From: Melioribacteraceae bacterium
Lineage (GTDB): Bacteria; Bacteroidota; Ignavibacteria; Ignavibacteriales; Melioribacteraceae
DNA length: 34,419 nucleotides
Direction: 5' to 3'
NCBI GenBank assembly: GCA_026983795.1
Contig: JALSTI010000257.1
Span: forward strand, 1 to 34,419
Made by a program: the position numbers and the translations under genes. Positions 4,854 to 34,419 of this stretch are shown piece by piece. How positions within the stretch are numbered: position 1 is the first letter of the stretch; each line of letters starts with the position of its first letter. Below the pieces are notes generated by a model, which saw only the letters and a list, made by a program, of their open reading frames with translations, did no database searches and was not told where the DNA came from.

Positions 4854-6422
4854 TTATGCTTTGCTCTCCATAAAAACCACCGGTAAAATCATTTCTTCCA
4901 TCGATATACCGCCATGTTGAAATGTATCGTTATAATGACTTAAATATTTATGGTAATCCGTAGGATAAACGAAATAATAATCTTCCTTTGCAATTATATA
5001 ATTAATTGTAACGCCTCTTCTTGGTAACATATACCGTTCAGGGTCGCGAATATAAAGCGCATGCTTGGCATCCACCTTTAAATTTCTGCCGAATTTAAAT
5101 CTTAAATTTTTAGACGCTTCTTTATCACCCAAAACTTTAGCGCCTCTATGAACTCTTATGCTGCCGTGATCGGTAGTAAGAATAATTTTAGCATTTTTCA
5201 TTTGGGCTATTTTACGGAAAGTTCCGAGCAGGGAAGAATGCATAAACCAGCTGTTAGTTAAGGATCTGTAGGCGGATTCGTCGGGCGCAATTTCTTTAAG
5301 GATATCGGAATCCGATCTGCCGTGAACAAGCATATCCAAAAAATTTACAACCACCGCCATAAAATGTGTTTTTTTGTGGGAAGAAATATTTTGTTCGAAA
5401 GATTTTCCGACTTCGGGATCAATAATTTTCATGTATTTTAAATCCGTTTTCAACTCAATTTTTTCTCTGTTCAATAAAAGCTGTAAAAGATCTTTTTCGT
5501 ATTTATTTTGACTTCTCTCATCGTCTTTTTTTTCGCCCCAAAGTTCGGGATATCTTTTGGCAATTTGCGAAGGGAACAATCCGCTAAAAAGCGCATTACG
5601 CGAATACGGAGTTGCAGTTGGAAGAATGGAGTAAAAATATTCTTTTTGGATATCGAATAAATTTATTAAAGTTTTTTCAAGCACAAACCATTGGTCTAAT
5701 CTTAAACAATCCAAAATAAAAAAGAAAACCGGTCCATCGGAATTACGTAAATGCCGGAAAACATATTTTTCCATAATTTGAGGAGAAAGAACAGGCGTAT
5801 TTTCGGAATTTGGATTTTCCAACCAATTCAAATAATTTTTCTCAACAAATTTTGAAAACTCTTGGTTCGTTTCCTTTTTCTGTTCGTTTAATGTTTGCCT
5901 CAAACCGATTTCGGGATGTTCGTCCATTTCCAATTCCCATCCCACAAGTTTAGTATAAATTTCGATCCAACTTTTGTAATCCATCTTATCCAATAATTTT
6001 CTCGATATTTCATTAAAATCCTGCAAATAATCTTTTGCCACATATTCGCCCGAAATTTTTTTTGATTCAAATATTTTTTTACAAACGAGTAACACTTGCG
6101 AAGGGACAACGGGTTTTATCAGGTAATCGCTAATTTTGCTGCCGATTGCTTCATTCATTAAAGATTCTTCTTCGCTTTTGGTAACCATTACAACGGGAAT
6201 ATTCGGATTTATTTCTTTTATTTTTGACAATGTTTCCAAACCGCCCATTCCCGGCATCATTTCGTCTAAAAAAATCAAATCGTATTGAATTTCTTTAATT
6301 TTGGAAATTGCATCGCTGCCGTTAGTAACCGAATCAACATCGTAGCCTTTTTCCGACAGAAAAATTATATGGGATCTCAAAAGTTCAATTTCGTCATCTA
6401 CCCATAACAGTTTTTTTTTCAT
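4854..6422 (-). CDS. porX: PorX-type response regulator: receiver domain fused to PglZ alkaline-phosphatase-like domain
   Basis: PorX-family proteins regulate type IX secretion. The Porphyromonas protein acts with histidine kinase PorY and sigma factor SigP, and the PglZ half has been described as a zinc-dependent nucleotide phosphodiesterase. In this 522-residue protein the receiver domain spans about residues 1-120, with the acidic pocket DDE (9-11), phosphoacceptor D53 in FLDEMMPG and the switch lysine in YLIKP (K103). A helical linker follows. The PglZ domain (about 210-520) begins near FFILDCLRLDQW and carries the metal-binding TTDHGSIRV segment. The ATG is preceded by AAAGGA at 9 nt, a site that overlaps the sprA stop codon, so translation of regulator and translocon is probably linked. 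No partner kinase is encoded here. The specific link to T9SS is strengthened by the adjacent sprA. Confidence 0.92.
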   Translation of the reverse strand: MKKKLLWVDDEIELLRSHIIFLSEKGYDVDSVTNGSDAISKIKEIQYDLIFLDEMMPGMGGLETLSKIKEINPNIPVVMVTKSEEESLMNEAIGSKISDYLIKPVVPSQVLLVCKKIFESKKISGEYVAKDYLQDFNEISRKLLDKMDYKSWIEIYTKLVGWELEMDEHPEIGLRQTLNEQKKETNQEFSKFVEKNYLNWLENPNSENTPVLSPQIMEKYVFRHLRNSDGPVFFFILDCLRLDQWFVLEKTLINLFDIQKEYFYSILPTATPYSRNALFSGLFPSQIAKRYPELWGEKKDDERSQNKYEKDLLQLLLNREKIELKTDLKYMKIIDPEVGKSFEQNISSHKKTHFMAVVVNFLDMLVHGRSDSDILKEIAPDESAYRSLTNSWFMHSSLLGTFRKIAQMKNAKIILTTDHGSIRVHRGAKVLGDKEASKNLRFKFGRNLKVDAKHALYIRDPERYMLPRRGVTINYIIAKEDYYFVYPTDYHKYLSHYNDTFQHGGISMEEMILPVVFMESKA

Positions 6423-6436
6423 TTATTTATTTCCTT

Positions 6437-9400
6437 TTATTGAATTGTAATGTGAACATCCAAGCCTGCTTCGTTTGTTGTTGTAGGCGGAATTCTTGAA
6501 GCTCCTTCCGGCGCCACGGATGTCCGTTTATAAAATAACGACAATGTAACTTTTGAACTGATAACATATTTAATTCTCGGTTCAATCGACGTTCTGGTTG
6601 TTCCATCCTGAGGTTTTCCCTCTTCGGTAAAATTATCCATTTCAAAAACCACAACCGAATTTCTGCTGCTTGTATAAGATAATGAAATTTCTATATCGTT
6701 TTTAAGCGATAATCCGAACAACGGTAAACTGAACCCGGATTTTGAATAACTTGCAGTTATGCTAATATCTTTGGAAAGCGATTCATTAATATTTCTTGTA
6801 GATGCGCCTAAATCGAAAGAAGATTTTGCCGAATATTTAATTGAGCCGCTTAAGTTACCCTCCCATAATTTTTTGAATGAAACATTAATGCCAATTAAAG
6901 GCGAAAAACCATAAGTAATACGTTGGCTTTGAATTTGAGTTCTCCCGTCGGGATCAATTCGCCAAGATTCGGTATAGCCCGAAGTATAAGCATGGGATAA
7001 AGAAACGCTTTGAGCAAATCCCTTAAAGAATGATATTTTTTCGAGTCCTCTCCAATTTATCCTCCAATTCGGTCTGGGAATATATTTGGCAACGTCGGCA
7101 AGTAAAGGAATTTTTGATAATAACGAAAAACTCTCAAAGCCCGAAACAAAAGCTTCCGATAAATTTTTCTCGGGATCATTTTGATAAATATCGTTAACTT
7201 CTTTAATTCCGGCTTTCGACAAAAATAACGGGAAATAAAGAAACGATCTGTTCAAAGTTCCTGTGGAAGTTATTGTGTTTATTGTAACATTTCCAAATTC
7301 ATCCGTAGTAAGCCGCGTGGATTTGTTCATTCCCCAACCGACTTTCCAGTCAATATCTATCGATGCATTTTGCCACAAAGGTCTTGATGTTCTAAAACTA
7401 AAGTCGTTTTTTTGTGAAAATCTATCGGACAAATTCCCCTTTGGCGCACGGGGACCAACATCGTAAGACAGACCAAGCATAAATGCGCGGCTGGGACCGT
7501 TATCGTCATATTGGTTAAAACCCCAAAAATTAGTAAAACCGGTACCTTCGGCTTTTAATCCGGAGCCCGACTGTGAATTAGTTTGCGAAAAGTTAAACGT
7601 AATTTGTTCGTAATCAAAAAGGAGCCATTTTACGGCATTTCTTAGGAACAACAAAGCTTTTTTAACAACATGAGTTTTATTATTTACCTTCAAACTATCT
7701 GTTTCTTTAATGTTTTCAAGCGAATCGACTTTTACACCCGGTTCACGCGTCAAATATTTTTTCTTTTCTTCTTTTATTTTTTCATTTTGCTTTTTCAATT
7801 CTTTATCAACATTTCTCGATACTCTGCTTCCCCTTCTTCTTCTGCCGCCTCTTCCGGAATTCGAATTTCTTCTTGTGTTTCTACCTTTAACGGCAGGTTT
7901 TTTTCTGCTTCTAAATAACGGCGCCGTCAATGCTTTCAGCTTTAATGTTAAACTGGCGGAAATTCTGTTGGTAAAGCCTGCGCTTCTTCCTAATTCTTCT
8001 TGTTGAAAATTATTTTGCCAATTGTAATTTACATTGTAACCCATGTTTATTGTAAAATACTTATCCAAATTCCACAAAGACGGTAATTTAGGTCGTGTTT
8101 TAATGCTGAGCGTTTGAGCGTATCTAAAATCTTTTCCGAATATAGGACCGTGGAAAATATCCCGCCAAATATCGCGCTCCAGTCTGTCTTTGCCGTTTTC
8201 AGTTAAAAGATGCGCATAAGAAGAAGCCACGTTAACATTATAATTAAAACTCAAATTAAGAAATCCGCCTTCTGTTAATTTCCAATTAAATCCGAAGTTC
8301 CTCTTAGCGGTAAAATCCCGCTGAATATTTAATTTTGCATTTGCGGTTCTGCTTTGGTTAGCAGACCTTTTTCTATTTGCCGATAACCCGGTATTAAAAG
8401 TTTGAGGAGTAAAATAAAGTTTAACATTTCTATAATCTTTAAATATCCTGAATAGCGCTCCAATAACCGGAATATTAGCGGGATAGATAAAGTTATTTCT
8501 GCTAAAATTCAAAGTATATTTTGCATTTGCATTCCATACCCAGCTTTTAGAAAATAGGGTAGTAGGACTGCGGCTTCTGGATTTATTATAATTAAATCCG
8601 AAGGTTAAACCGTTAATAATATCGCGCACGTACCACTTTTTAGAAGGCAATCTAATTTTAATAGAAGGAACCGCCCAAGTATCGGAAACATTGATGGTTT
8701 GAGTTTCCGATTTAAAGTTATTTGCTTCAAGCTCGGCTTGTTTTTTATCTACGCCTTCGGTTACTCTTTTTTCTATTATTTTTTTAGCCGCTTCTTCCAC
8801 GTTTATATCAGTGCCGGGCACGTATAACGGTTTAGCAATAGATTCGTTATGTGAATAATTTATTCTGAATGAGCTGCCGGATAAATTAAGCGGAATCAGT
8901 TTTAACAGATCGAAATTAACCGACCCTCCCCATTTCTTTCTGTCTATTCTTGAGCCGAACCGTTGATTTAATCTATGAAAATAAGGATCTGTTTGACTTA
9001 AATTTAAATTAATATTCATCAGGTCGGCAAATTTAAATTGCGCCGATGCGCTATAAGCCCATCCTTTAGTATCGTCAGCACCTAAAACTCTTAATTCGTT
9101 TATCCATAACGAGCCGGAGATATCGCCTTTATCGTTATTTTGCACGGGATTAACAATACCGAAAATGAAAAAATTAATTTGAGTAAGCGAAGGATTCCCT
9201 TTAATACCAAAAGAATGCCCCGGAAAACCTTTTACCGGCACTGAGAATAATTCATTCGGATCCGGTCTTATTTGTTTTATTGCGGTTAAATCCGAAAACG
9301 GGATATCAATTTCGTTCCATCCGGGTTTAACCGGTTGCCGGTATTCGTAAAAGTTTGCAGTGTCGGCTCCGAATCTAAAATAAACTTCGGCTCCGTAATT

Positions 9401-12400
9401 ATCCGCGTCTTGATAATACGAAATCGAACCAGGACTATCGTTTAAATCACCGTGAACGAATAATTTCATTTCCTTATAACTAAAAACATCTAAAGGTCTG
9501 TACAGGTATTTAACAATTTCCCTCGAATCACCGTCTTGCATATTATTAACTTTCAAAAGCAAAGACTGTTCATTTTTAAACACTTCTTGATCCGGTTTGC
9601 TTCTGTCGCGTTCCCTTTGCACACCGGGCGGTGAAGTATATTCCGGATTATCCTCAAAGTTTATAGTTGATACAACTAATGTAGTATCGTCCTCTTCAAC
9701 TTTTCCGGGGACTAAAACTTTTTGCCACTGGTTTCCTACCAAATTTAGTTCCGCAAATCTCAAGTGAACGGGTTTGGAAACTCCGTTAATCCATAATCTA
9801 ATTGTTTCAATAACAGTAAAACTCGGATTTCCAACCTTTTCAACAAATTCACGCAACGGAATTCTAAATTGATACCAATTGTCATTATCTCCGCCGCCGC
9901 TAATAAATTTATTAGTTGCCCTGTTTGTGTCAATCGGCACTTCATATCTAAAATAACTGTTTACTTTATCCAAAGTAAAGTTTCTATTTAAATCTTCGGT
10001 ATCGGGAATTTTACCTATATCGGTTAACGTGGCATTTCCTTCCGAGCCGTTAATTTTAACATAGTTAAAAGAACCTTGCGTAAAAGAAAAATCATCATTG
10101 CTGGGATCATTAAAAGTGTTACCGAATTTAGCCCTTTCTTCGGCATCCGTCAAGCCGTCCATTCCCGTATCTTCATCCTGGTTATCAATTAAATCATTTT
10201 GATTTTTATCCTCCGTATCGAGTTTGTTATTCGGAATAACATCTTCCGATATTTGTCCCAAGTCAATATAAATCTTACTTCCCGGCGGAGCTTCATCGAC
10301 GTGCAACCAAAATTCAATAAATTCTATATTTTCCTCCACCAAATTACTAGCGGTAGTGGAAAGCCCTTTCATCATTCCCCCCCAAACTTCTTCGGGAGTA
10401 TTGAGATTAGGAGTATAATTGTAAGTACCTCTTTTAGAAGGATCAAAAACCAAATCCAATGCAGTAACTTGCTGGTCTTCGCGCGCAGCTTTTTTTCTGT
10501 TGCCCCAAATATCTTTTACGGTAACATTAGAAGGCAGAAAATTATACCAGTAAGTCTTCCCTTTATAATCCATTTGTTCTTGTTTGGATAAATTTCCTAT
10601 ACCAAGCATATTATCGGGAACGCTCAAATCCTTCCAACCGGTGTATCCAACTCCAATCGGTATAATTCTTTTTGCGCCTTCAAAATCGTCAATGTAGGCA
10701 ATACTTTTAGACTTGTCACTGGAAATTGTACTCTTTTTTGTATTCGGGTCGGGATTCATATAAGCAAATTCGCCTTTAAGGTTAACCGTTGACATTTCTT
10801 TTGTAGAAAACAGATAGTCCAACCCTTTTGTTAAAAATGGCAAATTAAATCCCGTTTGAAAGTCCAAACCTAAAATGGAATTGTTAAGTGGTTCTTCGCC
10901 TATTCTAACTTTATCGCTTAATGTTTTTTGATTTAAGTTTAAATAAGAAAATCCGAACTTTGTTTTTTTATCAAAATCGTAAAGACCTCTGAAACCGATT
11001 AAAGTTTTTGAAGCCAATTGAAAGAGGTCGTTTTTTTCGTAAGTAATTTTCAAATTAGCGCCGGTTACCAGCGCGGCTTCATTTCTAATAATAACCTGCC
11101 CGATATTATAGTCCACGCTGTAATCAACGCCTTCTTTTAACTCGGCTCCGTTTAAGGTAACCCTCACCGAATTTTCCACAACATTAAAGCCAATATTATA
11201 AACCGAAGAAGACAAAGCGGAATATTCGCCGACCAATATAAATTTATCTTTGGCTTTATCTTGCTTGGCAAACGTAACGGTAGTATCGTAAACCGATTGA
11301 TAAGCAAGGTTTTTATCGGATAATGGAAATTGTTTGCCGAAAGGTTCCAATACCGGGAAAATAATTTCTCCGGTTTTTGGTAAAATAGTTCTACCGGGGT
11401 CCCAATCGAATGCACCGTCCGGACCTCCGGTACCACTTTCATCTCTAGTATCCAAACCGAAAGCTTGCAGCAAATTTTGACCGTTGTAATTATCCACCGG
11501 TTCTTGACCGGGAACAATATAATTAATATCGAATTTGAATCCTTTCTTTTTGATATCTCTTCCGCCAATAGGATAAATGTTTTTCAACTGCAAACGCCAA
11601 GCTTCCGCAAAAGTTCCGCCGGGTTGAAGTTTTCTGGGTTTAACAAGTTTAAGCACAATTGTAGCCGAAGTATCGGAACCGGATTCCCGCAAGAATTCGC
11701 CGTAATAACGGTCTTGACTTCCCGGCGGTCCTTCAATTCTATAAGCAACCGCCAGCGCTTCGTCATCTTGAATTTGCGTTTTCAAATTTATAATACCTAC
11801 GTCCGGATTGTAATCGTAATCCACATCTTGAGTTAGCAGAACGAATCTCGAACCTATTTCCGATTTGCCCGGGACGGGGTTTCCTGCATTCTGCCGCCAT
11901 TTGGGTCCGTACGGTTGTATAGTTGAATCGACTCCTGTTCTATAGTTCAAATCTATAAAAGCGTTACCGCGTCTTTCTTTTTGGGGATCAATTCTTGCCG
12001 TAGTGGTTTTCCAAACTTCCAAATCTTTTACCCTGTAAAAAGGAATTACAACGGGATTGGCATTTCCGTAATATTTATGAAACATATTCAGGTCGGGTGC
12101 CGTTGAAGCATAAACTGTATCCAAGAAAAAGTGATTACGGGAATAATCGTATGCATGAATTTCATATTTATTTTTTTCGGAACCTCCGGTAACCGAGACT
12201 TCTTCAACTTCGCTCTTTTTCTGCGAAGCGATAGATGTAAGGGTAAACGGACCCATCTTAAACTTTGCTTTAATACCGAAGAGAGCCTCGCTACCTCCGA
12301 CCAGAGGTGAAGTTTGCAGCGAAACATTTCCGGCTTCTATCGATTGAATAATCTCGTCTTCATAACCGGTATATTTAAGCTTCAATTGATTTTCGTATTG

Positions 12401-13240
12401 AAAATCCCTTTCGGTGTTCCAATCTGCCGAAATTTTTAATTTATCTCCAATAGTTCCATTAACGTTTATTTGAACTTGCTGTTTAAAATCGGGCTCATTT
12501 CTTGTGTTTCCCAATAGTGAAGCGGTAACGCCTTCGGTAGTTTCGTTTCGCCAAGCGCCGTGAATATCCACGGCTCCGTTTATTCGTAAACTTATTCTTG
12601 GCGGGCCGAAAATACTTAAAAACGAAACGCTTGGCAGAGGGATGTCAATCTTTGTAATATCGGATAACAACTTGCTTAAATCTTTTTTACCGGATTTCAA
12701 TTCATATTTGTATGCTAATTTTTCCCAATCGTTTTTATTGGTTTCCTTCAACATCATATTAATATATTGATCGAGCGGGATTTTTAACGAACTGCTTAAT
12801 TCCTTATCCCCGAAGTATTGTTTTATAATTACATTTTCGCCTGTCGAATCCAGCTCGACTTTTCTGTATAAATATCTTTTTGACGGATACGCAAAAAAGC
12901 TATATTTCCTCGGCGGTACAAGAGAGATATATTTTTGGGGTTTTAATTTGAATTTAAAGTATTTTATTCTTGCCGTAGAATCTAACGCCATTGAATCGAC
13001 TATTGTTACCTTGGAACTGTCGGCAGTTAAAGAGTCACTTTTAATTTTGCCTTTTTCCTTGGTCGAATCCGATAACATGTCTGTATAAAAATGATTAGTA
13101 TAATTATGAGGAAAGTTAATTAAAGAAGAGGCGTTAATTTCCATACTACCGGCTTCCCCATCTGTACCGAAGTATAGTGAGATAACCATAAACATAAAAA
13201 ATAAAGGAAACAAAATTTTATTTATTTCCCTTTTAACCAA
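6437..13240 (-). CDS. sprA: Type IX secretion system outer-membrane translocon SprA (Sov)
   Basis: SprA forms the very large single-chain beta-barrel through which T9SS cargo crosses the outer membrane. The 2267 residues fit the family's usual 2300-2500. The protein has long SprA-type beta-strand repeats, the conserved ISADWNTERDFQYENQ region near residue 280, and an Asp-rich calcium-binding-like stretch (about 1003-1034, with a second short one near 1080). It ends in alternating hydrophobic barrel strands. A highly basic Arg/Gly/Lys-rich segment (about 1777-1848) interrupts the barrel. The N terminus has KR followed by a hydrophobic run ending near residue 25, consistent with a signal peptide. 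The start is uncertain: no ATG lies at the expected place, so TTG at 13240 (weak AAGAG four bases upstream) is used. The first in-frame ATG (13195) would cut the signal peptide, and a TAG lies at 13273-13271. The 158-bp upstream gap holds no promoter I trust. Confidence 0.94.
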   Translation of the reverse strand: MVKREINKILFPLFFMFMVISLYFGTDGEAGSMEINASSLINFPHNYTNHFYTDMLSDSTKEKGKIKSDSLTADSSKVTIVDSMALDSTARIKYFKFKLKPQKYISLVPPRKYSFFAYPSKRYLYRKVELDSTGENVIIKQYFGDKELSSSLKIPLDQYINMMLKETNKNDWEKLAYKYELKSGKKDLSKLLSDITKIDIPLPSVSFLSIFGPPRISLRINGAVDIHGAWRNETTEGVTASLLGNTRNEPDFKQQVQINVNGTIGDKLKISADWNTERDFQYENQLKLKYTGYEDEIIQSIEAGNVSLQTSPLVGGSEALFGIKAKFKMGPFTLTSIASQKKSEVEEVSVTGGSEKNKYEIHAYDYSRNHFFLDTVYASTAPDLNMFHKYYGNANPVVIPFYRVKDLEVWKTTTARIDPQKERRGNAFIDLNYRTGVDSTIQPYGPKWRQNAGNPVPGKSEIGSRFVLLTQDVDYDYNPDVGIINLKTQIQDDEALAVAYRIEGPPGSQDRYYGEFLRESGSDTSATIVLKLVKPRKLQPGGTFAEAWRLQLKNIYPIGGRDIKKKGFKFDINYIVPGQEPVDNYNGQNLLQAFGLDTRDESGTGGPDGAFDWDPGRTILPKTGEIIFPVLEPFGKQFPLSDKNLAYQSVYDTTVTFAKQDKAKDKFILVGEYSALSSSVYNIGFNVVENSVRVTLNGAELKEGVDYSVDYNIGQVIIRNEAALVTGANLKITYEKNDLFQLASKTLIGFRGLYDFDKKTKFGFSYLNLNQKTLSDKVRIGEEPLNNSILGLDFQTGFNLPFLTKGLDYLFSTKEMSTVNLKGEFAYMNPDPNTKKSTISSDKSKSIAYIDDFEGAKRIIPIGVGYTGWKDLSVPDNMLGIGNLSKQEQMDYKGKTYWYNFLPSNVTVKDIWGNRKKAAREDQQVTALDLVFDPSKRGTYNYTPNLNTPEEVWGGMMKGLSTTASNLVEENIEFIEFWLHVDEAPPGSKIYIDLGQISEDVIPNNKLDTEDKNQNDLIDNQDEDTGMDGLTDAEERAKFGNTFNDPSNDDFSFTQGSFNYVKINGSEGNATLTDIGKIPDTEDLNRNFTLDKVNSYFRYEVPIDTNRATNKFISGGGDNDNWYQFRIPLREFVEKVGNPSFTVIETIRLWINGVSKPVHLRFAELNLVGNQWQKVLVPGKVEEDDTTLVVSTINFEDNPEYTSPPGVQRERDRSKPDQEVFKNEQSLLLKVNNMQDGDSREIVKYLYRPLDVFSYKEMKLFVHGDLNDSPGSISYYQDADNYGAEVYFRFGADTANFYEYRQPVKPGWNEIDIPFSDLTAIKQIRPDPNELFSVPVKGFPGHSFGIKGNPSLTQINFFIFGIVNPVQNNDKGDISGSLWINELRVLGADDTKGWAYSASAQFKFADLMNINLNLSQTDPYFHRLNQRFGSRIDRKKWGGSVNFDLLKLIPLNLSGSSFRINYSHNESIAKPLYVPGTDINVEEAAKKIIEKRVTEGVDKKQAELEANNFKSETQTINVSDTWAVPSIKIRLPSKKWYVRDIINGLTFGFNYNKSRSRSPTTLFSKSWVWNANAKYTLNFSRNNFIYPANIPVIGALFRIFKDYRNVKLYFTPQTFNTGLSANRKRSANQSRTANAKLNIQRDFTAKRNFGFNWKLTEGGFLNLSFNYNVNVASSYAHLLTENGKDRLERDIWRDIFHGPIFGKDFRYAQTLSIKTRPKLPSLWNLDKYFTINMGYNVNYNWQNNFQQEELGRSAGFTNRISASLTLKLKALTAPLFRSRKKPAVKGRNTRRNSNSGRGGRRRRGSRVSRNVDKELKKQNEKIKEEKKKYLTREPGVKVDSLENIKETDSLKVNNKTHVVKKALLFLRNAVKWLLFDYEQITFNFSQTNSQSGSGLKAEGTGFTNFWGFNQYDDNGPSRAFMLGLSYDVGPRAPKGNLSDRFSQKNDFSFRTSRPLWQNASIDIDWKVGWGMNKSTRLTTDEFGNVTINTITSTGTLNRSFLYFPLFLSKAGIKEVNDIYQNDPEKNLSEAFVSGFESFSLLSKIPLLADVAKYIPRPNWRINWRGLEKISFFKGFAQSVSLSHAYTSGYTESWRIDPDGRTQIQSQRITYGFSPLIGINVSFKKLWEGNLSGSIKYSAKSSFDLGASTRNINESLSKDISITASYSKSGFSLPLFGLSLKNDIEISLSYTSSRNSVVVFEMDNFTEEGKPQDGTTRTSIEPRIKYVISSKVTLSLFYKRTSVAPEGASRIPPTTTNEAGLDVHITIQ

Positions 13241-28667: not shown

Positions 28668-30002
28668 TCACATATCAAACGGATAAACAAACGAAATTCT
28701 CGGTTCTATTTTTTTCTGCGGAGTATAATCGATTATATTATCGTTGTCATCTCTGATTGGTGTGAACGTCCAATTGTAAACAACCGAAACCAAAATGTAA
28801 GGAATCGGTTTATAACCAAGCTCGGCAAAAAGATAAGATCTGTCATCCAACGTAAATAAATCTTTCTCGTCTTTAATATTTATTTTATCGTAACCGGCAC
28901 GTGCAACGTAAGACATTCCTTCAGGTGAAATATCGGTCTCAAGATGTAAAATTCCGCTTGTGGGATGTTCGTCGAGTCTTTGATAACTACCGAGAATATC
29001 GAACGTACCAAGAACCCTAACAAGTAATTCCCCATAGAATCCATTCCCGACCGATGTTGCGGATTGAAGCTGCTGAACTTTACTTGATACAGCTCCCGTA
29101 GAATTATTAAACTTAAATCTTTCAATTTCATATAATGAATTAAAGTATGCCGGTAAATAATTGTCGGTGTTGAATCTTCTTTCCAACTTAGCTCTCACAT
29201 TTACTAAGCCCAAACCATTCAACCTTAGAATTGCTCCGGTTGATGTTCCGCTACCGAAATCGAGAATTTTTGCATAATCGAAATAAAGTTCCAAGTTAGC
29301 TACTTTTCCTTTAATAATTGGAAGTCCCACATCAAAGCCTATTTCCGTTACAGAACCTTTATCGTTTGTGGCTTTAAAATTACCGTTATTGTTTATTCCG
29401 GAAATTACTCCGGCGTAATCACTAAAATCTGAAACTACCGTTCCTCCAAATTCAATTCCGCCTAAAATTGGAATACCGGCGGCTTCGGTCAATTGTAATG
29501 GTCGTACAAAACCGCGTATTCCGGCAACGCCGGGTTGACCGAAATTACCGTAAACCGATTCAAATCCGAATGAGCCGAAATCGACGTCAAATTCCAAACC
29601 AATTTTACGAGTATCGTAGCTGGGACTATTGTTATACATATACATAATACTTCCGTGACCAAGCGTTGCATAATCAAGCGCTCCTAACCTCCCATAAACC
29701 GGATCTCCTTTATAACCGTATCTGATATATCTGATTATGCTCAAATAATCGGAAAATTCGTTGAAGTTTTCCGTGCGGATTTTACCGTTTTTATTGAATT
29801 CCAAATTTAAATCTAGACCGATACCGATATTAGCAAATGCAATTTCCGGATTAAAATGAAAAGAATAATGCGGTTCGTTATCAATCCATGTAACACCGAA
29901 TCCTCCGCCCAAGTAACCTTTATAGGGGTCTAATTTTCTGAACTGAGCATTAATCGAAAGAAAGCTGACGATTAGAATTATAAATAGTAATTTTGTTTTC
30001 AT
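28668..30002 (-). CDS. Outer-membrane beta-barrel protein of unknown function
   Basis: The 444-residue protein has a Sec signal peptide (MKTKLLFIILIVSFLSINA, then Q). The rest is rich in alternating aromatic/hydrophobic and glycine strands (for example YLGGGFGVTW, SYLFAELGYKPIPYILVSVVYNWTF), and it ends in a barrel-like strand PRISFVYPFDM. I recognise no named family. It is not an evident PorV/FadL, PorP/SprF or OmpA protein, and there is no plug or sorting domain. The ATG at 30002 is chosen over 30008 because AAGG at 30014-30011 is 8 nt from it but only 2 nt from the other. It lies 37 bp downstream of the C25 peptidase gene, so the two are probably one operon, which suggests a shared envelope role. 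Confidence 0.7.
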   Translation of the reverse strand: MKTKLLFIILIVSFLSINAQFRKLDPYKGYLGGGFGVTWIDNEPHYSFHFNPEIAFANIGIGLDLNLEFNKNGKIRTENFNEFSDYLSIIRYIRYGYKGDPVYGRLGALDYATLGHGSIMYMYNNSPSYDTRKIGLEFDVDFGSFGFESVYGNFGQPGVAGIRGFVRPLQLTEAAGIPILGGIEFGGTVVSDFSDYAGVISGINNNGNFKATNDKGSVTEIGFDVGLPIIKGKVANLELYFDYAKILDFGSGTSTGAILRLNGLGLVNVRAKLERRFNTDNYLPAYFNSLYEIERFKFNNSTGAVSSKVQQLQSATSVGNGFYGELLVRVLGTFDILGSYQRLDEHPTSGILHLETDISPEGMSYVARAGYDKINIKDEKDLFTLDDRSYLFAELGYKPIPYILVSVVYNWTFTPIRDDNDNIIDYTPQKKIEPRISFVYPFDM

Positions 30003-30010
30003 TTCCATTA

Positions 30011-30038: not shown

Positions 30039-33000
30039 TTAACGAATTATAGCAAGTTTTTGTGTAAATTGCTCCGTTTTATTTGAAGATTTCATTAACA
30101 CTTTATAAATATAAACTCCGTTTGCTATGGTATCACCATCCGAATCCCTGCCGTCCCAATAAATCCGGTTGAAATCAAAGTTAAGCCGTTCGTGCGGTAC
30201 ATCTATTTCTTTAATTAGTCTGCCCGCAATTGTATAAATTTTTATTTTTATTTCATCGGGAATTTGAGTTAGCTTAAAAGTAAAATAAGTTTCATTGTTA
30301 AAAGGATTAGGATAATTATAAAGGTTTAAAAGTTTTGTTTCGCTTTCCACCAGGAAATTTTTTGAAATACCGGCAGAATCGGCAACATTTCCCGAAGCAT
30401 CTTTTCCAAAGACTGTTAACGTATATTCCCCTTTTTCTAATTTAGGACGATAATTTACTGTTACTTTCGGATTAGTATTTGAAAAGTTTATTGATAACAC
30501 GTCGGGGTTTTTTGAGTAATAAATTCTCCGGTCATTTAAGAATAAAGTAACGGCGGATGTATCATTAATGGGAATTAAAGACGGATCATTCAATTCAATT
30601 TTAATGTCAGGATTAGTAGAAACATATTCGCCGTCAAATATATCATTCCCGTCAAAAGTAATATTCAATGCCGGTTTAGTTGTATCCCCTTTTACAAAAA
30701 ACGGCAAGGAATAAAAATTATTATCCTTGTATAATTCGGTTATTTTGTTTTCAGTATCGATATTAATATTAAACTGACCGTTACCGGAATAACTTGTAGT
30801 TTTAAAGTTTACGGTGAATAATTTTCGTTGTTCGGGTCCAATCGAGTTTACCAATTCTTCAAAGAGTTGTTGTGTGGAATTATTGGGTTTTATTAAATTC
30901 ACACTTACTTTAAAACTATCCGCAGCAGATTCTCCGGCATTATAAACATAAAAAGACAGATTAATATCTTCACCCTGGTCAACCGTATCCTTATCCACCG
31001 ATACGACTTGGTAATTTGTACCAAGTTCAGGAACTCCGGTATAACTGACTCCGAGAGATTTTAGCGATGGCGAAATCAAATCCGATGAAGCATTAAATTC
31101 CGCCAAAACTTTAATATAACTATAATTCAAATCATTTAGAAAAGACAAATCAGCTTCACTGTTATTGATAGTAACATAATTTAAAGTATCCAATTCCGTA
31201 TCGCTTTTAACACCGAGAATTCTGTAATTTATTTTACTGTCGGAAGGAAGTGAATCCGAAACAGACAACTTCTTCCAATGCGAAGCGGGACCGATTTTGG
31301 CGGTTAAAATTGAGCCGGATTCATGAATTCCCGTTATCACCGTATCGATTGTAACCCTTCCGTCAAACGGTTTTGAAAATGCTTCCGGCATACTACCGGG
31401 AGCAGCGCCTTTTTTACCGATAAAAGCCCATGAGCCTCGAAATGCCAAACTGTCTATGTAAATACTTCCGAATTCTTTAATCTTATTTTTCAAATCATTA
31501 CTTAACCCGATTTTACCTTCGTCCTTAACTGCAAAACAGACCAAATACTTAGACGATAATGTATCCAGGAAATTGAGGTATTCCGTTGCAACTGCGCTGC
31601 CTCCCCCTAATAAATCAAACAGCTTTGCCTCTTTAAACATATAAGTGGAGTCTTCAAAAACAACAACATGATGACCCCGCAACGTGTTTTCAGGAATGAA
31701 ATTCTGTCCGTTTTTGAATACAAATGCTGTATTACCATCATTAAATCCTGCAGAAGTTACTTTAAACTCCACATTATTCGAATCCAAATTAATACTATTT
31801 TTCCCTGTTAATACATTTTTTCTATTAGTCCGGTTAAAACTCAAACTATCATTAATCAAGTATCCGGTTTTGCTGCCTATAAAAAATGATTTGGTTAATC
31901 CGAATTCCGATGAGCCGCTTAATTTAGCTCTTACCCAAATTCGTTTGTTTTTATACTCAGCGGGTATATGATATTTACTAAAAAGCGAATTTAGAGATAA
32001 TGTTTCCGTTGTTGGATTTGTAAAATCAGGCGTATTGTCTAACTCTAATGTAAATGAATTATCCTGAGGCTTTTTAGTTGGGTTAATTATTTTCAAAGTA
32101 TCTATTAATTCGTTTTCCACATTATAAGGGGCAAGGAACTTGATAGAACCCGAAAGTACATTAAACGATATATCTGCACTATTGTCATTTTCGTAAATTT
32201 CATCAATCTTGTTCATAGGATCTAATTTAATTGTTAAATGATGTAAACCGGCATAATTTTTTGTGGGCAATTTAATTTCGACCGAATCTATGAAATCGGG
32301 AACCGGTCTTATCAAATTAATTCCGGTTGTCTTTTTTCCGTTAAAAATATCTTCTATATTAATAGCAACCGAATCTCCGGCCGGAACCAGACCGTAATTG
32401 AAATATTTTATTTTTACATTCACGCTGTCATCGGTATCACTCGGCAGCCGGGGATCGAATTCAACCGATGAGTTATCAATTACAAAATTGGGTTTTTCGG
32501 GTAATCTTAATTTGATAACCGGATCACCTATTAATTCGTTCGTCATTGAAAATAATTCATTTACACTTGAACTGCCGTATGTATTCAACAATTCAATTTT
32601 AGCAAGACGGTGTGCATCGGCAATATTAAGAACAGAATCTTTTAAAAACTTTTTATAAAACAATTGCGGATAAGTTGTTGCGGTTGACACGAAACCCAAT
32701 GATGAATTACCTACGTAAGTTAATGCTTGACCACCCTGTTGAACGGTAAACTGTTCGGAAAACGAGGTTACATCGGGTTCTGCGTATTTACCGGTAGAAC
32801 AGCCGAAATCCGTTATCATTGGATTTTTGTTTATTTTATTCTCCAGCTGATTTGATTGACTGATACTGTTATCCCACGTTTGAGTACCGCTGTGTCCCAA
32901 GTAAGAAATAAACAAACCGCCCTGGTCAATTGCATTCGTTATTACATCTTGTGAGAAAGGTCCAAAGTTTGTAACCGGATTTGCAGTCTTATAAAAATGA

Positions 33001-34419
33001 TGCCATATACCGCCAATCGGCGGAGGTACAACATAATTATTAATTATATAATCATTCACCCCTTTTAACTGACTAAGCTGGAAAGGATCATTTAAAGTCC
33101 CGCCGGAAAGAAATAAAAACCTTTTGTTCCATGCGTCATATTTTTGAGAAAGATAATTTTGATGCTTTTGCAAATACAGTCGGAATTCCTCATTTGACTG
33201 ACACGGTAATCTTCCGATATCAATCTGCGGAATTGCAGATCCGGTAGAGTCCCAAATAACATACCAAATATCGCTAACCGGTTCACCATAAGACGGCACA
33301 TAATTTTTCTGAGGAGGAGCGCCGAAATATTTTGTTTTATATCCGTGAAAATCATAAGTCGGTTTACCCACCAAAAAAACATATTTGGGATGCGGCGCCT
33401 GCCAGTTATCCTGCGTCATCATTAAGAAGTCTTTTATAGGCTCCGGCGCCAAAAATCCGTAATTAAATTCATCGTATATATCAAAAACGTTCACAACTTT
33501 TGTCTTTACATTGTAATTATTTTCAACAAATTTTGCGTAATCAGCAGCCGTGCTTAAAAAATCGGGATGAGTTATCAATACATAACCGGCTTGGTTTGCG
33601 GAATTTCTCAAATTCACAAATTTCTTTTTATAATAAAATTTAGGTTTGGCAATTTTATTTACGGCAGTTATAATGTAAGTATTTCCGTTTGAAATCGTAT
33701 CATTAAATATTAAAGTATTTCCATTAAACACATAATTTGTAATTTTAGCTGCTGGTTTATTATCTATTAATTTATAAAGGCTAAAATCATTGCCGGATAG
33801 GCCCGAAACTTTAACTGCGGCAAATTGCTTGGAAGTTAGATTACGATATCCAAACAATAATGAATCGTTATTAACTTTTATTAATCTCGGATATTCGATT
33901 TCCCACCAATCGCCAAAGCAGCTGTTGGGATTTGCTTGTGTGGGATAAGAAATTAATTTCAGTTTGTTATTACCATCGGTAAGGTTACCGGAATCAAACT
34001 CCCCTTGGAGCGTTATAACCTGATATTTATTAATAAAGCTCGAATCAACTGGAGTTGGGTTGGAATTAATTTTTAATGCCAGGTTATGAGCGTTTGTAGA
34101 AATATTGGATGCCCAGCTTTGAATTTTAAGATAAGCCTTTGCAGGCAGACCCGGTTTCAAATCAGAAACATTAAACGAAAAGTTTCTGGTACTAACTCCC
34201 TGCACCCACCATTCCCAAGTTTCATTTTCGTATATATTCGGATTTTGTCGTCTTACTTCACCGCCCGAAAGTGAAAAATCGTACCACATATTTGTTTCAA
34301 AGTGCAAAAATTCATCATAATAATCTAAAGTATCGGTTGTTGTTCCAACGTTATGTAGTAATGTATCAATCCTTTTCCCGGATGTCCCATCCCAAGTTAA
34401 AAAATATGAACTAGTATCC
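30039..34419 (-). CDS. C25-family (gingipain/PorU-like) cysteine peptidase with ILEI-like domain and T9SS sorting domain, N terminus outside the window
   Basis: The frame stays open to the right edge (visible part about 1460 residues; the edge reads DTSSYFLTWDG, an internal sequence), so the true start lies outside. An N-terminal beta region is followed by the C25 domain (about 33620-32500), with catalytic histidine in SYLGHSG (codon 32894-32892), catalytic cysteine in DFGCSTG (32801-32799), and ELIGDPVIKL closing the domain. A CARDB-like domain (about 32477-32162) and beta domains follow. An ILEI/FAM3-like segment (about 31690-31385) contains CFAVKDEG, FGSIYIDSLAFR and SWAFIGKKG. A second CARDB-like domain (about 31022-30700), an Ig-like domain, and a type A sorting domain (YNYPNPFN, about 30341-30042) complete the protein. 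PorU, the T9SS sortase, is also a C25 protein with a sorting domain; whether this is PorU or cargo is unresolved. The barrel gene follows 37 bp on. Confidence 0.88.
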   Translation of the reverse strand, partial: DTSSYFLTWDGTSGKRIDTLLHNVGTTTDTLDYYDEFLHFETNMWYDFSLSGGEVRRQNPNIYENETWEWWVQGVSTRNFSFNVSDLKPGLPAKAYLKIQSWASNISTNAHNLALKINSNPTPVDSSFINKYQVITLQGEFDSGNLTDGNNKLKLISYPTQANPNSCFGDWWEIEYPRLIKVNNDSLLFGYRNLTSKQFAAVKVSGLSGNDFSLYKLIDNKPAAKITNYVFNGNTLIFNDTISNGNTYIITAVNKIAKPKFYYKKKFVNLRNSANQAGYVLITHPDFLSTAADYAKFVENNYNVKTKVVNVFDIYDEFNYGFLAPEPIKDFLMMTQDNWQAPHPKYVFLVGKPTYDFHGYKTKYFGAPPQKNYVPSYGEPVSDIWYVIWDSTGSAIPQIDIGRLPCQSNEEFRLYLQKHQNYLSQKYDAWNKRFLFLSGGTLNDPFQLSQLKGVNDYIINNYVVPPPIGGIWHHFYKTANPVTNFGPFSQDVITNAIDQGGLFISYLGHSGTQTWDNSISQSNQLENKINKNPMITDFGCSTGKYAEPDVTSFSEQFTVQQGGQALTYVGNSSLGFVSTATTYPQLFYKKFLKDSVLNIADAHRLAKIELLNTYGSSSVNELFSMTNELIGDPVIKLRLPEKPNFVIDNSSVEFDPRLPSDTDDSVNVKIKYFNYGLVPAGDSVAINIEDIFNGKKTTGINLIRPVPDFIDSVEIKLPTKNYAGLHHLTIKLDPMNKIDEIYENDNSADISFNVLSGSIKFLAPYNVENELIDTLKIINPTKKPQDNSFTLELDNTPDFTNPTTETLSLNSLFSKYHIPAEYKNKRIWVRAKLSGSSEFGLTKSFFIGSKTGYLINDSLSFNRTNRKNVLTGKNSINLDSNNVEFKVTSAGFNDGNTAFVFKNGQNFIPENTLRGHHVVVFEDSTYMFKEAKLFDLLGGGSAVATEYLNFLDTLSSKYLVCFAVKDEGKIGLSNDLKNKIKEFGSIYIDSLAFRGSWAFIGKKGAAPGSMPEAFSKPFDGRVTIDTVITGIHESGSILTAKIGPASHWKKLSVSDSLPSDSKINYRILGVKSDTELDTLNYVTINNSEADLSFLNDLNYSYIKVLAEFNASSDLISPSLKSLGVSYTGVPELGTNYQVVSVDKDTVDQGEDINLSFYVYNAGESAADSFKVSVNLIKPNNSTQQLFEELVNSIGPEQRKLFTVNFKTTSYSGNGQFNINIDTENKITELYKDNNFYSLPFFVKGDTTKPALNITFDGNDIFDGEYVSTNPDIKIELNDPSLIPINDTSAVTLFLNDRRIYYSKNPDVLSINFSNTNPKVTVNYRPKLEKGEYTLTVFGKDASGNVADSAGISKNFLVESETKLLNLYNYPNPFNNETYFTFKLTQIPDEIKIKIYTIAGRLIKEIDVPHERLNFDFNRIYWDGRDSDGDTIANGVYIYKVLMKSSNKTEQFTQKLAIIR

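Follow-up and report, generated by a model that had tools for sequence, protein, structure and literature searches.

The ILEI (GG) domain (PF15711) is best known from FAM3A-D, which are secreted factors, and from the stem of the glycosyltransferase POMGNT1. According to excerpts of PMC9802357, the POMGNT1 stem binds beta-linked GlcNAc through Arg129, Asp179 and Arg207, which FAM3 proteins keep, and FAM3C, FAM3A and a FAM3-like domain from a worm also bind GlcNAc. ILEI occurs outside animals as well, in fibre and tail proteins of phages, and its presence in phages was already known (excerpts of PMC9437275 and PMC10276149). The phage gp35 and Tal CBM_1 modules have the same fold, and CBM_1 combines the POMGNT1-stem fold with the kept Arg and Asp (excerpt of PMC9437275).

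Among T9SS proteins, the closest described systems are PorU of Porphyromonas gingivalis (NF033707) and PorU2, a family already named by NCBI (NF052324, putative T9SS sortase PorU2). In P. gingivalis, PorZ, a beta-propeller protein that works in trans, binds A-LPS and passes it to PorU, as described in the excerpted text of PMC8545088. On the function of PorU2, we found nothing in the open-access literature searched. The initial annotation of the DNA analysed here, which placed a glycan-binding ILEI module in a PorU-like peptidase, knew of no description of such a role; we likewise found none joining ILEI with bacteria, C25 or T9SS in the open-access literature, and other sources may hold one.

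A C25 protein resembling PorU carries an ILEI/FAM3-type domain

The window, that is, the whole stretch of DNA that was analysed, is a 34,419-nucleotide contig of a Melioribacteraceae bacterium. From N to C terminus, the protein encoded at its end comprises a PorU-like N-terminal part, a C25 domain with His and Cys, beta domains, the ILEI domain, a CARDB domain, Ig-like domains and a T9SS-type tail; a model of 1200 aa of this protein reached a pTM of 0.48 and was left out of domain placement. The features are as follows.

30039..34418, minus strand: PorU2-type C25 protein gene, 1459 residues visible, with its 5′ end past the point where contig and window both end
32508..33584, minus strand: peptidase C25 domain, residues 279-637 (PF01364, 202.4 bits, cut-off 23)
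32892..32894, minus strand: codon of the catalytic-type His509, invariant in 27/27 aligned proteins
32799..32801, minus strand: codon of the catalytic-type Cys540, invariant in 27/27 aligned proteins
31404..31679, minus strand: ILEI/FAM3-type domain, residues 914-1005 (PF15711 and predicted fold)
31677..31679, minus strand: R914, aligned with POMGNT1 Arg129, kept in 16/30
31521..31523, minus strand: D966, aligned with POMGNT1 Asp179, kept in 29/30
31437..31439, minus strand: R994, aligned with POMGNT1 Arg207, kept in 29/30
30708..31004, minus strand: CARDB domain, residues 1139-1237 (PF07705, 45.3 bits, cut-off 22.7)
30066..30314, minus strand: T9SS type A-like sorting tail/FlgD-like Ig fold, residues 1369-1451 (TIGR04183 and PF13860)
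28668..30008, minus strand: 446-aa protein, downstream of the ILEI-C25 gene and adjoining it in relatives too

An ILEI/FAM3-like domain had been claimed at 31385-31690 from the strings RGHHVVVFEDS, FDLLGG, KDEG, EFGS, LAFRGSWAFIGKKG and PEAF. All of these lie in the minus-strand ORF 30039-34418, and the PF15711 match spans 31404-31679 on that strand. Residues 914-1005 matched profile positions 1-90 of 90 (E 1.4e-17, 64.4 bits), and the genome search scored 69 bits at the same position, against a curated cut-off of 27 bits, so that the Pfam search proposed at the outset returned a significant match over the entire profile. This was the single ILEI match in the window's genome, and the Pfam profile search gave 0 matches in 14 control genomes. 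PDB sequence matches at E<=0.01 were solely to FAM3C (best 2.5e-10), POMGNT1 (1.2e-7), FAM3A (1.5e-6) and FAM3B (1.6e-6).

The fold led to the same proteins. An AlphaFold model of residues 886-1022, built from 28 input sequences, had a pLDDT of 94.2 and a pTM of 0.88; each of the 21 Foldseek matches at E<=0.001 was FAM3, POMGNT1 or TMEM2. VIA-align Z values were 14.9-19.2 for FAM3, POMGNT1 and TMEM2, and the next row, from another family, stood at 4.0. BFVD matches of the window domain also included phage fibre and hinge-connector proteins. The predicted fold is that of FAM3 and the POMGNT1 stem, as the initial annotation had proposed, and no other immunoglobulin or jelly-roll fold; profile, PDB sequence and fold comparisons together rule out a chance match or a different fold. 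We conclude that the PorU-like C25 protein contains a genuine ILEI/FAM3-type domain. This domain resembles the animal ones in its whole-profile match, its fold (Z 16-19 for FAM3 and POMGNT1) and the three sugar-contact residues; unlike those secreted factors and glycosyltransferase stem, it is one module of a large bacterial protein, and its sugar site is a predicted one. The phage gp35 and Tal proteins are adhesion devices without a peptidase, whereas the window's ILEI domain sits in a peptidase protein.

Membership of the host protein in C25 follows from its PF01364 score together with the H509/C540 pair, to which we assign a catalytic role by assumed analogy with C25 peptidases. Its N-terminal half scored far above chance and below cut-off against both related models, PorU_rel_Nterm (NF052324, PorU2; 329.1 bits against 450, over residues 1-746) and PorU (NF033707; 269.1 bits against 420). 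The window protein is without 123 N-terminal positions of NF052324, and the listed same-family relatives also scored below that cut-off (best 443.5). Accordingly, the earlier reading of a PorU-like, T9SS-linked C25 peptidase holds in that the protein is PorU-like and has a T9SS-type C-terminus, but it is not PorU itself. The tail match to TIGR04183 was marginal (23.4 bits, cut-off 23), and PF13860 matched the tail with 30.2 bits (cut-off 27). When 27 long ILEI proteins, chosen by their ILEI match, were aligned, all 27 matched C25, NF052324 and PorU, and a Propeptide_C25 match was present in 5/27. The window's genome encodes a separate, stronger C25 protein of PorU size (1325 aa).

On these profile matches, the host most likely belongs to a second, PorU-related C25 family, PorU2 in NCBI naming, with putative sortase activity. 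It resembles PorU2 in its N-terminal match, albeit below cut-off; the NF052324 model spans the N-terminal 879 positions only, so the ILEI domain lies outside its description. With PorU it has in common the C25 core with His and Cys, the PorU-like N-terminal part and the T9SS-type tail, but it scores below the PorU cut-off, and ILEI was found in 0/30 PorU-type rows of the C25 tree described below.

Distribution of the domain among C25 proteins

Which C25 proteins carry the domain had been left to a survey, and the answer was a largely one-family distribution that leaves out the PorU-type rows. Among 395 genomes of the phylum, an ILEI match was present in 101 and a C25 match in 274; among the matches listed, no ILEI match lay in an ORF of PorU's usual size, 1100-1400 aa. 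From the survey genomes, 80 stretches were retrieved. An iterated profile of our own, built from 13 seed domains of the window and 11 loci (best E of 0.23 in a reversed-sequence control), detected the putative domain in PorU2-type proteins missed by Pfam, mostly about 430-480 residues before the end.

In a tree of 109 C25 domains, one side held 64/66 ILEI rows, three shortened rows and one ILEI-less row (L110), and the other held the 30 PorU-type rows, nine further ILEI-less rows and two ILEI rows (family f21). This division coincides with the root as drawn; its support is 94/80, under the starred level, and by strict count the ILEI label needs five changes, several of them due to rows cut before the ILEI position. 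Together, these results suggest that the ILEI domain is largely a family trait of one C25 branch. The idea that every C25 protein carries ILEI was rejected: our profile had no match in L134 (the other large C25 of the window's genome), L129, L130, L132, L133, L136, L138 and L139, nor in L109, L110, L125 and L128, some of these rows being shortened. L129, L130, L133 and L136, from the window's taxonomic order, represent another class of C25 proteins, about 1900 aa long and with no ILEI match, on its own tree branch.

A named scan with one ILEI peptide pattern, covering one genome per species in 84,980 species, matched 83 stretches, of which 43 were confirmed; it is not independent of the phylum survey, with which 8/43 loci overlap (L159, L160, L161, L164, L166, L170, L183 and L189). 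C25 and ILEI shared an ORF in 38/43 loci. The remaining five comprised L159, L190, L192 and L196, on short or cut contigs, and L198, a 203-aa Brocadiia MAG protein (L198:5398-6009) in which ILEI was the sole Pfam match (88.2 bits). Hosts included Ignavibacteriales, Melioribacter roseus, Stygiobacter electus, KSB1 and Calditrichaeota, and the domains closest to the window's (56-64% identity) were mostly from Ignavibacteria.

Two candidate carriers other than C25 proteins proved spurious: L098 is a CvfB-like S1 protein with a sub-cut-off ILEI score (21.8 bits), and L099 is an N6 DNA methylase with no ILEI match at 0.001. Several unusual arrangements were also recorded. Two ILEI domains flank C25, one on each side, in L184, L186, L188, L191, L195 and L197 (KSB1, Calditrichaeota and other bacteria), and a single 2398-aa ORF contains two ILEI domains (L065:169-7365). 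Tandem ILEI-C25 gene pairs occur at L076:4500-15376 and L083:4533-15134. In G188, the ILEI-C25 gene is apparently split (L072:4190-8442), a 227-aa ILEI ORF starting three bases past the end of the C25 ORF. A 585-aa fusion in G005 (L066:9994-11751) joins ILEI (78.7 bits, triad kept) to a phosphatidylserine decarboxylase domain.

The putative sugar site and the linked genes

In the PDB sequence alignments, R914, D966 and R994 align with Arg, Asp and Arg, in that order, in the corresponding POMGNT1 motifs, whose residue numbers were assigned from the spacings of 50 and 78. Among near relatives, represented by the window and 29 loci of the best survey matches (L005-L033, one of them not a C25 protein), the Asp and the second Arg were each kept in 29/30 and the first Arg in 16/30; the D966 and R994 columns were among the most conserved of this set. 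In a wider set, the full triad was present in 10/75 domain copies, and most copies of families f25, f34, f37, f38 and f45, taken to be Bacteroidia-like, had none of it. Since the triad is absent from most distant copies, conservation of the fold exceeds that of the site, and the ILEI fold is kept more broadly than the POMGNT1-type sugar site. For the window's own domain, we infer a sugar binder. Separately, six proteins from five other families (L081, L082, L091, L092, L094 and L103) have a TRH motif with His at the position of the sugar-contact Asp; judging by this substitution, the His could mean a different ligand.

The upstream neighbours of the gene at 37 loci in relatives were PorV2-like in 14, a WecG/TagA/CpsF glycosyltransferase in seven, GT4 in three, an epimerase in three and an O-antigen ligase in one; this set comprises 39 neighbours minus three (two ILEI-C25 genes and one 1213-aa ORF) plus that of L125, several being cut at the locus start. 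WecG was searched in 45 genomes, hand-picked for stronger matches among the 101 ILEI-positive ones and all from the window's class, and was present in 39. In 32/45, WecG started no more than 6 kb from the ILEI match, with 0.17 genomes expected by chance (3.6 Mb each), and in 25 of these 32 it was the sole WecG found in the genome. In the other 13 genomes, WecG was at 6-15 kb in four, on another contig in three and absent in six, G000 being one of the last. The PorU-type or third C25 gene was 159 kb to 1.5 Mb from WecG in the four genomes with listed positions. In the named scan, our own WecG profile matched in 20/43 loci, equal to 20/33 of those having at least 300 upstream bases.

Consistent with glycan assembly, G132 carries, all in one direction, a Wzx-type flippase, a UDP-galactopyranose (UDP-Galp) mutase, three GT2 genes, one GT4 gene, WecG and ILEI-C25. 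Among the window's closest relatives, L156, L157, L160 and L163 have WecG upstream on the opposite strand, Pfam-confirmed in L157 and L163; we infer WecG to be the upstream neighbour that the window lacks. A join of contigs C208 and C257 is not claimed: the glycosyltransferase truncated by the end of C208 is only about 29-34% identical to glycosyltransferases near the relatives' WecG. The glycan idea of the initial annotation gains two supports from the triad kept in the window and from the glycan assembly genes linked in many relatives, and we regard it as partly supported.

Downstream, the window's 446-aa protein, in which no Pfam family was found, shares 59% and 63% identity with the proteins encoded next downstream in L068 and L069. 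A HAD gene comes after it in the window, and the gene that follows in L068 and L069 has the same FDVDGTL start. No family dominated the 35 downstream neighbours (39 minus five, plus the window's). In seven genomes, every PorV2 match was below cut-off and none was directly beside the ILEI-C25 gene, with some PorV-like matches about 10-20 kb away. PorZ scored above cut-off in 6/7 ILEI-positive genomes tested, and G000 had two sub-cut-off pieces. The notion that ILEI replaces PorZ is unsupported, as PorZ co-occurs in these genomes.

Candidate roles of the ILEI-C25 protein

The reading that we tentatively favour, and that may well be right without our expecting it outright, is that the protein acts as a second sortase of the T9SS, with its ILEI domain holding an acceptor glycan that linked genes produce. 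The PorU2-type protein would be exported by T9SS and retained at the outer surface. There, its C25 domain would cleave the signal domain off cargo and transfer the new C-terminus to an amino sugar, and the ILEI domain would grip the acceptor glycan near the linking sugar through the POMGNT1-type site formed by R914, D966 and R994. The acceptor itself would be assembled by the linked Wzx, glycosyltransferase and WecG genes; the substrate of WecG-type enzymes is undecaprenyl-PP-GlcNAc. Whereas PorZ gives PorU its sugar grip in trans, that grip would here be part of the enzyme, the ILEI domain being built into the C25 protein. Joining of cargo to a glycan by a PorU2-type enzyme, with the glycan held by ILEI, is proposed by analogy. 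Counted against it are the full triad in 10/75 copies, the first Arg in 16/30, the PorU2 and PorU scores below cut-off and the failure of WecG linkage in 9/45 genomes.

The triad counts invite another explanation: in PorU2-type proteins, ILEI may serve structure or protein docking, for example of PorV2 or cargo, with the sugar residues a remnant in some lineages. Our own profile finds the domain in distant PorU2-type proteins without the triad, and PorV2 is the upstream neighbour in 14/37 loci, yet, in the wider class to which the window belongs, the Asp and the second Arg rank with the best-conserved columns (29/30 each), and linkage of the gene to glycan genes is seen; we consider this explanation rather unlikely, if deserving of attention. 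The C25 family also includes secreted proteases, and the protein could be one of these, a gingipain-like enzyme instead of a sortase, with ILEI mooring it to the cell's own polysaccharide. A tail that scores as a T9SS type A signal and the Propeptide_C25 match in 5/27 relatives would suit such a protease, but the N-terminal half matches PorU_rel_Nterm (329 bits) and PorU (269 bits), as do 27/27 relatives, which makes this alternative improbable in our estimation. Least probable, and in our judgement scarcely to be expected, is that the ligands of ILEI are foreign glycans, the domain serving adhesion or the targeting of substrates in the manner of phage fibre modules that share its fold. The BFVD matches to phage fibres fit this idea, as does the phage Tal module with the POMGNT1-stem fold and kept Arg and Asp (excerpt of PMC9437275); the linkage to glycan assembly genes, in which the neighbouring WecG is the genome's sole one in 25/32 and the order is once operon-like, argues against it.

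For the sortase with a built-in acceptor holder, the presence of PorZ in the same genomes means that the ILEI-C25 route would be a parallel pathway. A more specific proposal, which we advance as possible and would sooner doubt than rely on, is that a second pathway of T9SS attachment exists in Ignavibacteria-type bacteria: a PorU2-type sortase with a built-in FAM3/POMGNT1-type acceptor holder would join cargo to a glycan whose synthesis, encoded by the linked genes, starts on undecaprenyl diphosphate with a WecG-type step. Sortase and anchor glycan would then be inherited together, and lineages with an altered ILEI site would have changed sugar. The C-terminal half of PorU2 gains a recognisable sugar-binding fold, three named residues and candidate acceptor-glycan genes. 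If the sortase reading is true, T9SS anchoring would not be tied to A-LPS, sortase and glycan would form an exchangeable module, and bacterial protein-glycan coupling would involve a domain whose best-known examples are human FAM3 and POMGNT1.

As a separate observation, the window's contig carries two T9SS-type genes at 4854-6422 and 6437-13240 on the minus strand. One is a response regulator with a PglZ domain, which we take to be PorX-like, and the other encodes a 2267-aa protein with a SprA_N match (translocon family).
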